Of a stretch of 64,000 bases of DNA, positions 34,789 to 40,840 are shown piece after piece. The position numbers were made by a program, and so were the translations under genes. Position 1 is the stretch's first letter. Every line of letters begins with the position of its first letter. Under the pieces are notes generated by a model. It did not search any database. It saw only the letters and a program-made list of their open reading frames with translations, and had not been told where the DNA came from. The DNA is from Thiovibrio frasassiensis (GTDB lineage: Bacteria > Desulfobacterota > Desulfobulbia > Desulfobulbales > Desulfurivibrionaceae), in assembly GCF_029607905.1 (NCBI RefSeq), contig NZ_JAPHEH010000001.1, positions 1,393,530 to 1,457,529 on the forward strand. The letters run 5' to 3'.

Positions 34789-35769
34789 TTACTTGTCCCG
34801 GCTTAAGACATAGTGGGCCAAGCCGGCCAGAGGCGTCTTAGCCGGTGCCTCGCCGAAGATGGTAAGTCCGGCAAGCGCCTCTTGGATCAGTGCTTCCGCC
34901 TGCTCCCTGGCCAGGGAAAATCCCTGGTATTTTTCGATGATGGCCTGGGCGTGAGGCAGTTCTCGGCTGCGTTCCTGGGGTGTTCCCTTGAGTAAAGCGA
35001 TCAGCCGTTCGCGATCTGGGGCTTCGGCCTTTGCCAGGGTCTTGATCAGGGGCAGGGTCATCTTGCCTTCCTGGAAATCGTTGCCCACCACCTTACCGGT
35101 CTTGGCCGGGTCGCCGAGATAATCCAGCAGGTCGTCAACGATCTGGAAGGCCAAGCCCAGGTTGGTCCCATAGGTGCGCAGGGCGATCCGTTGGGCGGGG
35201 GAGCCCTGGTTGTGACCAATGCCCGCCTCGCAGGCCGCGGCAATGAGGGCGGCGGTTTTGCCCATCAGGACCTGGAAATATTTTTCCTCGGAGATGAGCA
35301 TCTCTGTGGCGTTGTGCATCTGCATAAATTCCGACTCGACCATGGCCGCCGTGGCGCGGCCGATTAGGGACATGGCTGTCGGGCCGCCCACCTCGCTGGC
35401 CAGGGCCATGGCATGGGCATGCAGATAATCCCCGGCCAGGATGACCGGCTCCATTCCCCAGAGAGTATTGGCGGTTTTGGCCCCCCGCCGCAGGGTGGCG
35501 TGATCGATGACATCATCGTGCAGCAGGCTGGCCGCATGGAGATACTCGAAAGAAATGGCCAAGCGCGGGGTATCTTCAGGGGGAGTCCCGACCAGGCTCG
35601 CGGCCAGCAGGGTGAGCAGCGGGCGGATGCGCTTGCCGCCCTGGAAGATGGCATGGCGGATGATCTGGGCCAGGAGCGGGCTTTCAACGATGGCCAGATC
35701 AGCCTCCATCACCGCGTCGATTTGCACCGCCTTTTCTTTGAAAAGCGCAAGCAGCTCGGAGTTGTTCAT
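34789..35769 (-). CDS. ispB: Long-chain all-trans polyprenyl diphosphate synthase (IspB-like)
   Basis: Makes the isoprenoid tail of a respiratory quinone by adding isopentenyl units. The 326-residue protein shows IFQGGKRIRPLLTLLAASLV, the first Asp-rich motif LLHDDVIDHATLRRG, GDYLHAHAMALASEVG, FQIVDDLLDYLGDPAKTGKV (second Asp-rich motif), and GNDFQEGKMTLPLI. The residue five before the first Asp is Ala, the small residue that permits long products, so an octaprenyl or heptaprenyl chain is more likely than farnesyl. Exact chain length is inferred. GGAGA precedes the ATG. A deacetylase-like gene follows after 3 bp. Confidence 0.9.
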   Translation of the reverse strand: MNNSELLALFKEKAVQIDAVMEADLAIVESPLLAQIIRHAIFQGGKRIRPLLTLLAASLVGTPPEDTPRLAISFEYLHAASLLHDDVIDHATLRRGAKTANTLWGMEPVILAGDYLHAHAMALASEVGGPTAMSLIGRATAAMVESEFMQMHNATEMLISEEKYFQVLMGKTAALIAAACEAGIGHNQGSPAQRIALRTYGTNLGLAFQIVDDLLDYLGDPAKTGKVVGNDFQEGKMTLPLIKTLAKAEAPDRERLIALLKGTPQERSRELPHAQAIIEKYQGFSLAREQAEALIQEALAGLTIFGEAPAKTPLAGLAHYVLSRDK

Positions 35770-35896
35770 GATCTTTTCTCCGTAATCGTTTTCATAATTT
35801 TCGGCTAGTCCTAGTATGGTAAACGTTCAGCAGTGCTGCAGATGCGCGGAAGAGGTCTGCAAGCTATAGCCAGCCTATGCGAGCAGGGTGATGACA

Positions 35897-35924
35897 AAGC
35901 AGCTGCGGTGCGGCTGAATGGTTA
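35897..35924 (-). repeat. 28-bp dispersed repeat, copy 1, supplying the helicase stop codon
   Basis: Read leftward it starts TAACCATTC, where TAA is the stop of the DinG-like gene, and contains CACCGCA and CTGCTT. It matches 25 of 28 bases of a copy at 40018-40045 that supplies the stop of another gene. Weaker similarity continues for about 30 bases beyond (CTCGC, AGCTAT-like blocks). Confidence 0.55.
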
Positions 35925-37889
35925 TGATTCCTCCTGGAAAAAATCCCGCACCGGACCAAGTTCTCGGCAGATCGGGCTCTGGGGCAGGCTTTTCAAGAAG
36001 AGTCTGCCATACTGCTTGCTAAAGAGGCGGACATCGCAGATGGCAAGCACCCCCCGGTCGGTGGAGCTGCGCATCAACCGGCCCACACCCTGGCGCAGGG
36101 TCAGGATGGCGCGGGGGATTTGAAAGTCGAAGAAGGGGTTGCCGCCCTCATTTTTGATCCGTTCCATGCGGGCCATAATAACAGGGTCCGAGGGGACTTC
36201 AAACGGAAGTTTGTCGATGATCACGCAGCTCAGCGATTCGCCCACCACATCCACCCCCTCCCAGAAGCTGGCCACCGCCAGGAGGACGGAATGGGTCTGT
36301 TCCTGAAACTGCTCAAGCAGTCGGGCCTTGGGCGCCTCCCCCTGCATCAGCACCGGAAATGGCAGGCGGCCGAGGAAAACCTCGTGGGCCGCGCGCATGG
36401 CGTTGATGCTGGTGAAAAGTACGAGGGTCCTCCCGTTGGCCGCCATGATCAACTCCTGCATCAGTTGCTGGGTAGCGGCCGGAAACTCCCGGGCCTGGGG
36501 CTCTGGAAACCCCTTGCCCGGCACAAAGAGCAGGGTCCGCTGTGCGTAATCAAAGGGGGTGGTCAGGGTTATGGTTGGGGTGTTTTTGGGCAAGCCGATG
36601 CGGTTGGCAAAGTAGGTGAAGGTATTGTCCGTGGTCAGGGTGGCTGAGGTGAAAATCACACTTCGGGTCTGTGCGTAGAGGAAATCCTGCAGCTCTGAGG
36701 CAATGTCAATGGGCGAGGCGGACAGGGCCACGGTTTTTTCCCGCCGCTCGTACCAGTAGACCGAGGAGGAGTCTTGCGCTTGGGTGATGGTGGTGAAGGA
36801 GGCCAGCATCTCTTCCGCCCTCCGCTGCATGCCTTGCCAGGACTCCCCGTTCATGGCCGTTTTGGCCAGTTGATTGCAGAGCCCCTTGATCTGGTCGATG
36901 AACCGTTGCCGTTCTTCATCCCAGCCGGGGAAGCGGTCGATGAATTGCAGCAGGGAGAAACGGCCCCGCTCCCTGGGGAAAAGCTCGGCAAAGAGATCGA
37001 CCTGTTTGGCCAGTGCCCGGGCGGTTTGGATAACTCCGTCCTTGGCGCGGCCCACCAGATCGGCTTGGGCTGCGGTTTCCAGATCCTTAACCAGATCCAC
37101 CACCTGATAATGGCTGAAGGAGGTGCCGAAGTATTGGGTTGCGACGCTTTCCAGGTGATGGGCCTCGTCGAAGATCACCGATTCGTAGCGGGGCAGAACC
37201 TCGGCATGGCCGAAACGGCGCAGGGCAAGGTCGGAAAAGAAGAGGTGGTGGTTGACCACCAGCAGCTGGGCCTGGCCCGCTTTTTTGCGTAGCTGCGTGA
37301 TGAAGCAGGAGGAATTGTCCGGGCAGTTGGTGCCCAGGCACTGGCTGGCCGAGGCGGTGATAGCCTGCCAGAGCGGGGCATTGTCCGCCAGCCAGGAGAG
37401 TTCGCTCCGGTCGCCGTTTTCGGTTTCTTCAAGCCAGTCGGCGAGCCGCTGGGTGTCGCGGTCGTCGGCAAAGAGATTTCGCTGGGGTGAAGCCAGGAAC
37501 TGCTGCCAGCGGTAGAGGCAGAGGTAGTTTTGTCTGCCTTTGATGCAGAGGGCGTTCAGGTTTGGGGCAAGGTGTTTTCGGATGAAGGGGATTTCCTTGG
37601 TGAGAATCTGGTCCTGCAGGTTGAGAGTATTGGTGGAAACCACCACTTTCTGGCCGCTGAGGATGGCCGGGACAAGATAGGCCAGGGTCTTGCCGGTGCC
37701 GGTACCCGCCTCTACCGCCAGCATCCCCGGCTGACCCAACCGTTCCTCTTCCGACAGTTCCAGAGTGGCAGCAATGGCTTCGGCCATGCGGAGCTGGCTG
37801 GGGCGCGATTCGTAGCCGGGCAGTTTTTGGGCCAGGATGCCGCCTTGGGCAAAGATTTCGGCCATGGTATCGGAGAGGGACGTGGACAT
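35922..37889 (-). CDS. DinG-like Fe-S DNA helicase
   Basis: A 5'-3' superfamily 2 helicase of the XPD/DinG type, likely for R-loop or damaged-DNA resolution. The 655-residue protein has Walker A VEAGTGTGKTLAYL near residue 60, motif Ia VVSTNTLNLQDQIL, the DEAH box VIFDEAHHLESVA, motif VIFTSATL and the C-terminal LRQGVGRLMRSSTDRGV. Candidate cluster cysteines are in NYLCLYRW and CLGTNCPDNSSC (residues about 120 and 184-195). No exonuclease domain is present, unlike Gram-positive DinG. The start MSTSLSDTMAEIF has an internal ATG alternative. It is divergent from the universal stress gene. Confidence 0.9.
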   Translation of the reverse strand: MSTSLSDTMAEIFAQGGILAQKLPGYESRPSQLRMAEAIAATLELSEEERLGQPGMLAVEAGTGTGKTLAYLVPAILSGQKVVVSTNTLNLQDQILTKEIPFIRKHLAPNLNALCIKGRQNYLCLYRWQQFLASPQRNLFADDRDTQRLADWLEETENGDRSELSWLADNAPLWQAITASASQCLGTNCPDNSSCFITQLRKKAGQAQLLVVNHHLFFSDLALRRFGHAEVLPRYESVIFDEAHHLESVATQYFGTSFSHYQVVDLVKDLETAAQADLVGRAKDGVIQTARALAKQVDLFAELFPRERGRFSLLQFIDRFPGWDEERQRFIDQIKGLCNQLAKTAMNGESWQGMQRRAEEMLASFTTITQAQDSSSVYWYERREKTVALSASPIDIASELQDFLYAQTRSVIFTSATLTTDNTFTYFANRIGLPKNTPTITLTTPFDYAQRTLLFVPGKGFPEPQAREFPAATQQLMQELIMAANGRTLVLFTSINAMRAAHEVFLGRLPFPVLMQGEAPKARLLEQFQEQTHSVLLAVASFWEGVDVVGESLSCVIIDKLPFEVPSDPVIMARMERIKNEGGNPFFDFQIPRAILTLRQGVGRLMRSSTDRGVLAICDVRLFSKQYGRLFLKSLPQSPICRELGPVRDFFQEES

Positions 37890-38048
37890 CTGGCTTTACT
37901 CTGGCTCAGGATTCAAGGGGATTTCTCTCCTGTTGACAAGGGGAAAAGCATTCTGCTAGCCTGATCAAGGAGAGAGGAAATGCGACCAGGCTTGGCCCAA
38001 GGTCGCGGTCATGGCTGAATTGTGACATCTATACCATAAGGAGGGGAA

Positions 38049-38495
38049 ATGAACGAAATTAAAAAGATTTTGGTTCCCGTGGATTTTTCAGAGAATTCGC
38101 AAAAGATTCTCGCTACGGCCGCTGATTTTGCCGCCAAGTTCAAGGCAGAGCTGGCGGTTGTTTTTGTGGTGCAGAGCTTTGACGATTATTCCGGTTTTTT
38201 CGTGCCCCACATGCCCATCATCCAGCTGGAAGAGGAGATGATCAAAAGCGCCACGGAAAAGATGAAGAGTTTTGTGGTGGAAACCCTTAATGGTTCGGTT
38301 CCCCATACCACGGCGATCCTGAGCGGCGACGTGGTCGAGGAGCTCAATCGCTATGCCGGGACAGAGAAGGCCGACCTGATTGTCATGGGCACCCATGGAT
38401 ACAAAGGACTGGATAAGATCCTTTTCGGCAGCGTGGCGGAAAAGATTGTCAAAACCGCGCCCTGCCCGGTGCTGACCATCAACCCTTACCGGTAG
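38049..38495 (+). CDS. Universal stress protein UspA family
   Basis: Cytoplasmic nucleotide-binding stress protein. The 148-residue single domain has KKILVPVDFSENSQKILATA at the start and the ATP-binding signature MGTHGYKGLDKILFGSVAEK (G-x2-G-x9-G-S) near residue 114, ending with PVLTINPYR. AAGGAGGGG lies 3 bases before the ATG, a strong site. It is a single-gene unit that converges on an uncharacterised gene 5 bp away. Confidence 0.94.
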   Translation: MNEIKKILVPVDFSENSQKILATAADFAAKFKAELAVVFVVQSFDDYSGFFVPHMPIIQLEEEMIKSATEKMKSFVVETLNGSVPHTTAILSGDVVEELNRYAGTEKADLIVMGTHGYKGLDKILFGSVAEKIVKTAPCPVLTINPYR

Positions 38496-38500
38496 AAGAT

Positions 38501-39595
38501 TCAGCTGAGAACCGCGAGCAGCCCGGTGGTTGTCGCCGGCCCTTGTTTCGGTTTGGCCATGGGGGTTCCGGTCAGTTCGGTAAAAAGGTCTCTGAGGGTG
38601 GTCCCCTCGTAGGCGTAAAAACGCAGACCCTTTTCGGTCGGCCGGTTTTCCAAAAACGGCAGGGAGGCCCGGTTCAGTTCGTTCCCAGCCCCTTGCAGGG
38701 CTGTAAGCTGCTCGGCAGAGATTGTCCCGCTGGCGGCAACCCCGAGCAGCTCCCGGTTGAAATGGACCCGGGCAGCCTCGATGGCGGTTTTCAATGCTTC
38801 AGTCTGGGCGTCATCTGCCATGTTTTCTTTTTGGGTCGGCAGGATGAGGCTGACCAGCAGCCTGGAAGGCTTGCCGGTGAGAGCCTCATACCTCTCGGCG
38901 AGCAGGCCCTGGACCTCTTCGTGGGTCGTCACCAGCAGGGGAAACTCCGGTGCCCTGGGATCCCGGGTGTAGAGGCGGCCCCAGGCCTTGATCAGCCGGG
39001 CCACGTTGATCGTCGGGCCGCTTGGCCCCGCGCTTGCAGCAAGTTCCCGGAGGGCCTGCCCCTCTTCTTCGTCTTCCTCCTCTTCCCCTGACGCGTCGCC
39101 CCGGATGGCGGCAAAGAGTTCCGCTTCCTTGCCCGAGATGGCCATGAAGCCTTGGTTGATTTCCCGCTCTTCCTCCCGGAACATCTCCGCCAGCTTCAGG
39201 ATGAGCATGGCCTGCCAGAGCACTTCGTTCTCTGCTTGTTGCGGCCGGTCGGTTGGCGTGCCGGAGCGCAGGCTTGCAGCCAGGGCGCCGACCGTGGCCT
39301 CGTCCCGGTCAGCATGTCCGGCGGAAAGAGAGGCGAGAAGTCCGCTGTGGAATTCCGCTTCATGGCCCCTGAGTTCTTTGGCCAGGGAGTGGAAACGATC
39401 CTGCTCTCTGTCGGAAAGCTGCACCGGCGTGTATCCTATGCTGGACTCGGGTGTTTCGTTTTTGTCGGCCAGGGGGGTGTTCGCGTCCGGCAGAGTATAA
39501 AAGAAGAGGGCGTCGCACAGGAGCCGGAAGGGTTGCAGGTCAGAGGGATGGGGGCTGGTTTCCGGAGAAAAAAGGGCGTTGAGCGATTGTCTCAT
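38501..39595 (-). CDS. Uncharacterised acidic protein, 364 residues
   Basis: I do not recognise this protein. It is soluble, rich in Glu, Ala and Leu, with no signal peptide or membrane helix. A strongly acidic linker (ASGEEEEDEEEGQALREL, about residues 167-184) separates a helical N-terminal half (FHSLAKELRGHEAEFHSGLL; EVLWQAMLILKLAEMFREEE) from a C-terminal half containing LIKAWGRLYTRDPRAPEFPL and LLVSLILPTQKENM. The coding signature is good: long frame, no interruption, GC-rich third positions. The neighbours (a stress gene, a small membrane protein) do not suggest a role. Confidence 0.75.
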   Translation of the reverse strand: MRQSLNALFSPETSPHPSDLQPFRLLCDALFFYTLPDANTPLADKNETPESSIGYTPVQLSDREQDRFHSLAKELRGHEAEFHSGLLASLSAGHADRDEATVGALAASLRSGTPTDRPQQAENEVLWQAMLILKLAEMFREEEREINQGFMAISGKEAELFAAIRGDASGEEEEDEEEGQALRELAASAGPSGPTINVARLIKAWGRLYTRDPRAPEFPLLVTTHEEVQGLLAERYEALTGKPSRLLVSLILPTQKENMADDAQTEALKTAIEAARVHFNRELLGVAASGTISAEQLTALQGAGNELNRASLPFLENRPTEKGLRFYAYEGTTLRDLFTELTGTPMAKPKQGPATTTGLLAVLS

Positions 39596-39680
39596 TTGTA
39601 ATTCCTGTTACAATGGGCTGGAAATCTCCCCGGGTAGAGCCAAGGGGAATATGTGAATAAAATTAAACAACAGGCTGCAC

Positions 39681-39977
39681 ATGCAAAAGATACAGGAGCA
39701 TATTACCCTGGCTATCCTGGGTATTGTCTATCTGCTGGCCAGTGTCCGTTATTTTCCCGGGCGGGCCATGCATTCCATCGTGGAAACCCTGATCCATATC
39801 CTCTCCGTGGCGCCGATCAATCTGGGGGCCACGTTGGTGATTGTCGCCGTTCTGCAACGCTTGGTCAAAGAGCGGCTGCCGTTCAGCAGGTCGCTGCGTT
39901 TTTTCCTGGTTATCGCTATTTCGCTGGAGTTCATCCTCGGGCTGGCCCATTATTTTGAAATAAATGGGGCGGTTTAG
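39681..39977 (+). CDS. Small integral membrane protein, uncharacterised
   Basis: The 98-residue product has three hydrophobic stretches: ITLAILGIVYLLASVRYF, INLGATLVIVAVLQRLV and FFLVIAISLEFILGLAHYF. A conserved-looking MHSIVETLIHILSVAPINLG lies between the first two. Only a weak CAGG lies before the ATG. The pattern slightly recalls PsiE/phosphate-starvation membrane proteins, but I cannot confirm that. It is divergent from the acidic protein gene and ends 40 bp before the second 28-bp repeat. Confidence 0.55.
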   Translation: MQKIQEHITLAILGIVYLLASVRYFPGRAMHSIVETLIHILSVAPINLGATLVIVAVLQRLVKERLPFSRSLRFFLVIAISLEFILGLAHYFEINGAV

Positions 39978-40017
39978 CCTGAGCGGATCAGGCCGAAGAT
40001 AGCTCAGCGAGAGTGCG

Positions 40018-40045
40018 AAGCAGATGCGGTGCTGCCGAATGGTTA
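40018..40045 (-). repeat. 28-bp dispersed repeat, copy 2, supplying the acyltransferase-like stop codon
   Basis: Same element as at 35897-35924, 25/28 identical, again placed so that its first bases TAA end the upstream gene. Beyond the core both copies carry CTCGC and a TAGC-type block with a short gap between them. Confidence 0.55.
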
Positions 40046-40840
40046 CCGGATCAGCGAGTTGCTGGTGTGCCAGCCGGAAGGCGCAGTGGTGTTGGGCAGG
40101 ACAATGGATTTTTTCCCGAGCACCGTGCCGGGGTTGGTCACCGCATTGCAGCCTGTCTGTACCTTGTCGCCAAATATTGCCCCGAATTTGCGTAATCCCG
40201 AACTGATGGGGCCGTCCGGGGTTTTCACCAGGACATCCCCGCCGGTGAAGCGCAGGTTTGCCAGTTTGGTTCCAGCCCCCAAGTTTACCTCGTTGCCCAG
40301 GATGCTGTCGCCCAGATAGGCGAAATGCCCGGCTTTGGCATCGTCGAGGAAGATTGCGTGCTTGACCTCGGTGACATGGCCGACCACGCAGCGCGCACCC
40401 ACCAGGCAATGGCCCCGCAGATAGGCGCCCTGCCGGATCTCGCTCTGATCGCCGATGATCACCGGACCCTTGATGAAGGCCCCGGATTCCACCAGCACCC
40501 CCTTCCCTATACTGAGCGGGCCGCCGGCCAATACCGCCCCGGCCATGAGAACGCTGGCTCCTTCCAGAAGCACGCCCTCGCGGAAAACCTTGAGCCTGCC
40601 CTTGGTGGCGTCACCAAATTCGATGGTGAGGTCGGTGGCTGCAAGCAACAGCGTGTCGTGGAGAACCAGGGTGGCCGGAAGGGGGCCTGGGTTTTGCGGC
40701 CAAGCGATTTGCGGCCAGGGATACTCCGTCATATAGCTTTTCAGCCGGGCCAGCGCCTGCCAGGGGTATTCCTCCGCGACGAAAAGAGAGGCATGCACAT
40801 AGTGGCTGAGATCAAAAAAAGAAGCGTTTGTAAGGTTCAT
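40043..40840 (-). CDS. Left-handed beta-helix (hexapeptide repeat) protein, GlmU acyltransferase-like
   Basis: The 265-residue protein has an N-terminal segment (FDLSHYVHASLFVAEEYPWQ), then repeating hexapeptide turns: VLLEGASVLMAGAVLAGGPL, SIGKGVLVESGAFIKGPVII, EIRQGAYLRGHCLVGARCVV and NEVNLGAGTKLANLRF. The last is like GlmU's NLGAGTxxANxRF, and HVTEVKHAIFLDDAKAGHFA, YLGDSILG matches the acceptor region of bifunctional GlmU/UAP enzymes. The uridylyltransferase domain is absent, so it could be a stand-alone acetyltransferase or sugar-1-phosphate modifying partner. Its stop codon is in a 28-bp repeat. No ribosome binding site is strong at ATG 40840. Confidence 0.8.
   Translation of the reverse strand: MNLTNASFFDLSHYVHASLFVAEEYPWQALARLKSYMTEYPWPQIAWPQNPGPLPATLVLHDTLLLAATDLTIEFGDATKGRLKVFREGVLLEGASVLMAGAVLAGGPLSIGKGVLVESGAFIKGPVIIGDQSEIRQGAYLRGHCLVGARCVVGHVTEVKHAIFLDDAKAGHFAYLGDSILGNEVNLGAGTKLANLRFTGGDVLVKTPDGPISSGLRKFGAIFGDKVQTGCNAVTNPGTVLGKKSIVLPNTTAPSGWHTSNSLIR

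Follow-up and report, generated by a model that had tools for sequence, protein, structure and literature searches.

The closest behaviours that have been described are those of two elements, Chunjie and QMITE2 (PMC10969869, PMC5896051). Chunjie of Geobacter uraniireducens is summarized in a review as a MITE of 178-235 bp whose dozens of intergenic copies have conserved terminal inverted repeats (TIRs) and direct repeats (PMC10969869). QMITE2 of Coxiella burnetii is found mostly in 3' untranslated regions, and in one case a copy terminates or lengthens the gene enhC (PMC5896051, PMC10969869). The locus considered here lies in a window of 64,000 nucleotides (the whole stretch of DNA that was analysed) from Thiovibrio frasassiensis, for which a preliminary description had reported a 28-bp repeat that provides the stop codon of two unrelated genes. 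The repeat itself is confirmed: the copies at 35897-35924 (AAGCAGCTGCGGTGCGGCTGAATGGTTA) and 40018-40045 (AAGCAGATGCGGTGCTGCCGAATGGTTA) differ at 3 of their 28 bases and agree at the other 25, and the TTA at 35922-35924 and at 40043-40045 is the reverse complement of a TAA stop, both genes being on the minus strand. Chance has been ruled out, as no match to the repeat occurs in 100 shuffles of the window; furthermore, a genome-wide search returns 12 close copies of the repeat pattern versus 0 of the reversed control pattern.

These 28 bp are one arm of a much longer inverted repeat. The flanks of the 12 close copies align over more than 100 bp, and in this alignment a hairpin at the centre separates the left arm, TAA(A/C)CGTTCAGCAG..GCAGATGCG, from the 28-bp right arm; the repeat is thus the right TIR of a non-coding hairpin element of ~105-150 bp. 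The ends of the element read GTAAC...GTTAC, with GTAACTATCC...GGATAGTTAC as the outer sequences. Many copies carry a left extension of ~46 nt, which starts with the same GTAA motif, giving a full form of GTAAC..(extension)..GTAAC-[hairpin core]-GTTAC and a size range of about 105-205 bp. With a covariance model (CM) built from the element and used to collect copies, ~30 sites were found in the 2.84-Mb genome of the window (G000; counts for this genome are based on searches and fetched stretches). The family is spread through the whole order of sulfur bacteria: of 58 relatives, 52 have model matches, among them all 16 genomes of the same genus. The element is short and non-coding, has TIRs and many dispersed copies, and is flanked by target-site duplications, and its insertion is evident from empty orthologous sites at the two loci discussed below. 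Taken together, these features are best explained, with a probability of roughly 0.87, if the repeat is the right TIR of a non-autonomous IS66-type MITE and the stop-codon register reflects the fixed end of the element together with the survival of in-frame insertions. Such a family has apparently not been described: the curated covariance models of Rfam give no match at either window copy and the literature searched holds no matching paper, ISfinder being outside the comparison. Dozens of weaker model matches are present in other genera of the order (G019, G024, G026, G043, G057, and other members) and probably mark IS66-type MITE subfamilies that are related but differ in sequence.

Table. 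Features at the two copies of the element in the window
Feature	Position	Strand	Basis
Copy 1, core of MITE, 105 bp	35820..35924	+	TAAACGTTCAGCAG..GCGGCTGAATGGTTA, long imperfect hairpin; CM 96.5 bits, E 2.1e-23, model 1-104
Putative degenerate left extension of copy 1 (GTAATCGTTTTC..TATGG)	35782..35819	+	By-eye alignment with subfamily extension GTAATCGTTCAYC..
TAA stop of dinG-like gene, from right end of copy 1	35922..35924	-	Sequence, ortholog comparison
Target-duplication copy, gene side (GGAGGAATC on - strand)	35926..35934	-	G014/G004 ortholog comparison
DinG-type helicase gene, 3' end abutting copy 1	35922..37889	-	Pfam Helicase_C_2 2.4e-44, DEAD 3.4e-9
Polyprenyl synthase gene, downstream	34789..35769	-	Pfam polyprenyl_synt 1.9e-66
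Copy 2, MITE remnant: right TIR and internal part	39992..40046	+	Pattern match; no full CM match
TAA stop of beta-helix gene, from right end of copy 2	40043..40045	-	Sequence, ortholog comparison
8-bp target duplication, gene side (CGGATCAG)	40047..40054	.	Sequence; empty sites CTGATCCGC-TAA/TAG in relatives
8-bp target duplication, far side (CGGATCAG)	39984..39991	.	Sequence; same duplication in orthologs L140, L147, L149
Left-handed beta-helix (hexapeptide) protein gene, 3' end abutting copy 2	40043..40840	-	Pfam Hexapep 6.1e-15
Convergent 98-aa ORF on far side of copy 2	39681..39977	+	No Pfam match

The target duplication is seen most clearly in a sister genome, G014, in which near-identical copies (GTAACTATCCAGCTC...CTGGATAGTTAC) have recently multiplied. 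The expansion is species-specific: the 20-nt arm pattern has 269 matches there on both strands, versus 52-111 in each of the other four genomes searched. Among 32 young copies in G014, 27 are flanked by a direct repeat that matches at 7-8 of 8 bases (18 perfectly), and in a mismatched-flank control only 3 of 188 pairs reach 7 and none reach 8. Older copies have a duplication of at least 7 in 21 of 74 cases, compared with 2 of 74 in the control. There are also very short derivatives (the L192:757 region in G014:C64, L195, and L180), which consist either of nothing but the left extension (~50 bp, GTAACTATCC..CCGTTAC) or of a bare hairpin; a derivative with only the left extension carries its own 8-bp duplication, GTTTTTTC, and the ends of the element alone seem enough for movement. 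Another copy, in L021 around 1501-1604, lies between direct repeats of ~20 bp (GGGGGGCGGCATGAGCAG), exceeding the usual 8 bp.

Members of the IS66 family generate 8-bp target duplications and have GTAA..TTAC ends; since the element shares both features, this family is indicated. Two elements that encode an IS66 transposase (PF03050, 5.7e-47 and 2.4e-41, respectively) are present in the same order as the hosts of the MITE, in different families. The first (L305) is 1729 bp long, with GTAACTATCCAGCT at both ends and an 8/8 duplication, GAATATTT; the second (L321) is 2414 bp long, with ends GTAACTGTTCAG / GTAACTGTTCAGGTCA and an 8/8 duplication, ATTTTATT. Their identity with the MITE is confined to the outer 12-17 bp of the ends. 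In the genus itself, PF03050 is found in 0 of 17 genomes, mostly draft MAGs, in which multi-copy IS elements assemble badly, and its absence despite the recent burst in G014 counts against the IS66 assignment. Neither the intervals separating widely spaced ends in G007 nor the surroundings of left-end-only copies in G014 contain a transposase, and a search for a plasmid-borne relative gave no match. As the genus yielded no PF03050 gene, the mobiliser is inferred rather than shown: an IS66 transposase would have moved the element in trans.

Two other origins have been weighed against these data. The ends start with TA, the size is near that of RUP, and the empty sites at the beta-helix locus at first fitted a TA duplication, all of which would suit a TA-target MITE of the IS630 type (RUP/Correia-like). 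Nevertheless, the young copies have 8-bp duplications outside the TA, and DDE_3 occurs in 0 of 7 good genomes of the genus, making this origin very unlikely; the TA duplication at the beta-helix locus was dropped in view of the 8-bp duplications. Equally hard to credit is a REP element moved by a RAYT (IS200-like) transposase. A dispersed hairpin near stop codons does recall REPs, and the genome has one Y1_Tnp gene, but the element is present at only 2 of 30 RAYT (Y1) loci, which is the level expected by chance, and 8-bp flanking duplications are not expected from Y1 transposition. The lack of linkage to Y1 loci thus led to this candidate being set aside.

Comparison of the two window loci with orthologous loci that have no element shows true insertion at both. 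By its orthologs, the beta-helix protein puts the group with uncultured Desulfobulbales/Desulfurivibrionaceae MAGs. In four genomes (G002, G003, G006, and G009), the empty site reads CTG ATC CGC TAA/TAG (CTGATCCGC-TAA/TAG), and a fifth, in G014, reads CGT TAA preceded by an ATT codon; in genomes with the empty site, the 98-aa ORF directly abuts the beta-helix stop. The filled site reads CTG ATC CGG TAA (CTGATCCGG-TAA), with the last G and the TAA coming from the element, and beyond the element a second CTGATCCG is followed by the old CTAA (L147, L149). The change from CTGATCCG^C-TAA to CTGATCCG-G-TAA therefore means that the element supplied the stop and left the old one stranded on its far side, without altering the protein sequence. 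At copy 2, the two target duplications match at 8/8, and the left end has apparently been lost by deletion at a CAG microhomology. The ortholog in G010 (L151) has an 11-residue C-terminal extension, AKSKRSAAQQE, that is absent from the others and is possibly the scar of a decayed insertion.

At the dinG locus, the dinG TGA overlaps the ATG of the polyprenyl synthase gene (ATGA) in 12 of 16 members of the genus, which is the ancestral arrangement. The element is present in G000, G014, and G004, with GGAGGAA duplicated. In the last two genomes, it sits between the dinG and polyprenyl synthase genes and has GGAGGAA, or more fully GGAGGAAA(C), on both sides, the Shine-Dalgarno region of the downstream gene having been included in the duplication. 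Consequently, the dinG product terminates in ..EET, and the gene for the synthase retains a Shine-Dalgarno sequence. Copy 1 retains a full core with the second, complementary arm at its left end, preceded by what is probably a degenerate form of the left extension. Its duplication is partly decayed (about 6/8), with the partner copy at 35773-35781, ahead of the polyprenyl synthase start, and such partial decay of the window copies' duplications weighs against the IS66-type reading. The two window copies are older versions of the insertion events seen in the relatives.

The preliminary description had gone further, suggesting insertion at, or selection for, gene ends, as if the element targets stop codons. 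The first suggestion is borne out by the other copies, whose positions relative to stop codons are not random. A count of 64 copies in five genomes was made with genes called by a home-made gene finder, which reproduces the obvious genes of the window and is not a curated annotation. Of 59 element ends that face the 3' end of a gene, 39 lie between -3 and +9 of the stop codon, and the closeness of element ends to the stop gives a KS p = 1e-13. In tandem gene pairs, 34 copies have their right end toward the upstream stop, compared with 9 in which the left end faces it (p = 1.7e-4). Furthermore, the TAA of the element serves as the stop in 12 copies, versus 1 copy that overlaps the gene more deeply, even though two of the three frames would read through. 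Placement is therefore strongly biased: beside gene 3' ends, right end inward, TAA in frame. In one intergenic region, the element has opposite orientations in G015 (L073:2001) and G014 (L087:2001), either by independent insertions or by inversion.

The second suggestion, that the element is site-specific and has stop codons or gene ends as its recognised target, is not supported. The strong concentration 0-9 nt from stops, the consistent orientation, and the share of recent insertions close to a stop (11 of 27, at -18..+11) are what such an element would produce. However, the 8-bp pre-insertion sites share no motif, and their position relative to the stop ranges between 18 nt ahead of it and 11 nt past it, other sites being in intergenic DNA, near starts, and occasionally inside genes. 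The TAA is not part of the target: it forms the invariant end of the element, and the old stop survives beyond the element. In addition, only about a fifth of the gene-end copies supply a stop; most copies have no such role, and others lie beside start codons, in longer intergenic DNA, or within genes. Stop-codon targeting is thus improbable, and we read the placement as at most a weak insertion bias combined with the survival of harmless in-frame insertions.

The data thus show a MITE that duplicates 8 bp of its target on insertion. At the two loci, an insertion close to the very end of a gene has left the coding sequence intact to its last codon or two, the duplicated target being followed by the outer GTAA, which provides a TAA. 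The other duplicate preserves the old stop at the beta-helix locus and, at the dinG locus, the Shine-Dalgarno region of the gene that follows. Copies would then accumulate at gene 3' ends because insertions in the NNG-TAA frame would be nearly neutral in a compact genome, and the shared register would arise from the constant end of the element and the retention of in-frame insertions.

Neutral insertion alone leaves unexplained, to the detriment of the IS66-type reading, both the orientation bias and the strand-polar stability of the hairpin. Twenty-one of 37 stem pairs have changed on both sides, a number equalled in 0 of 500 shuffles. Both arms have changed together in orthologous copies, with TAAACG..CGTTTA in one and TAACCG..CGGTTA in the other (L068/L072), and likewise in a second pair (L025/L088). 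In the 56-row alignment A4, to which the strand-bias argument is confined, the element strand has 203 G-T wobbles versus 20 A-C mismatches (111 versus 19 without two fixed wobble pairs), and it folds more stably than its complement in 56 of 56 copies. This co-variation of the arms and the better pairing of one strand hint at an added structural constraint. It is thus possible, though unlikely, that the element is a domesticated 3'-end hairpin (REP-like punctuation, an mRNA stabiliser, or an antisense RNA), in which selection explains the orientation and the arm co-variation; an origin as a MITE would be compatible with this. Yet the same loci are free of the element in many sister species, and therefore the hairpin has no conserved role at each locus; moreover, copy 1 has no terminator-like T-run or promoter-like site. 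Arm co-variation can also arise by quasi-palindrome template switching, and matches selected with the CM favour pairing on the modelled strand. One-strand selection, quasi-palindrome correction, and bias from the model that collected the copies could each contribute to the strand-polar structure. The prevailing orientation places the weaker-folding strand in the host mRNA. A more speculative proposal, to which still less weight is given, is that an order-wide IS66-type MITE has turned into strand-polar gene-end punctuation, its hairpin kept by compensatory change on one strand only and its copies retained in the orientation in which the weaker-folding strand enters the host mRNA immediately behind the stop that the element supplies.

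The present loci make clear, at the level of sequence, how operons and convergent gene pairs can take up a mobile element and stay undamaged, the 8-bp duplication and the terminal GTAA rebuilding the gene end. This large and old family has been active recently in one species, and its many empty and filled orthologous sites make the effect of a hairpin directly at a stop codon measurable across sister species. Among known systems, IS66 insertion sequences (ISBst12-like, transposase-only) and the MITEs derived from them are like the element in their 8-bp duplication and GTAA..TTAC ends. The element differs from them in being 105-205 bp long with no ORF, in its long hairpin core, and in having a second, internal GTAAC end with the ~46-nt left extension; its partner was not found in the genus. 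The REP elements of E. coli and other bacteria are also hairpins just after stop codons, but the present element has no association with RAYT, has 8-bp target duplications, and is much longer. Chunjie resembles it in size class, intergenic copies, TIRs, and direct repeats, a likeness drawn from the description in the review rather than from the sequence or the duplication length. QMITE2 has a different sequence and host, and whereas its effect on a stop arises by read-through or an indel, the element described here brings the stop with its fixed GTAA end.
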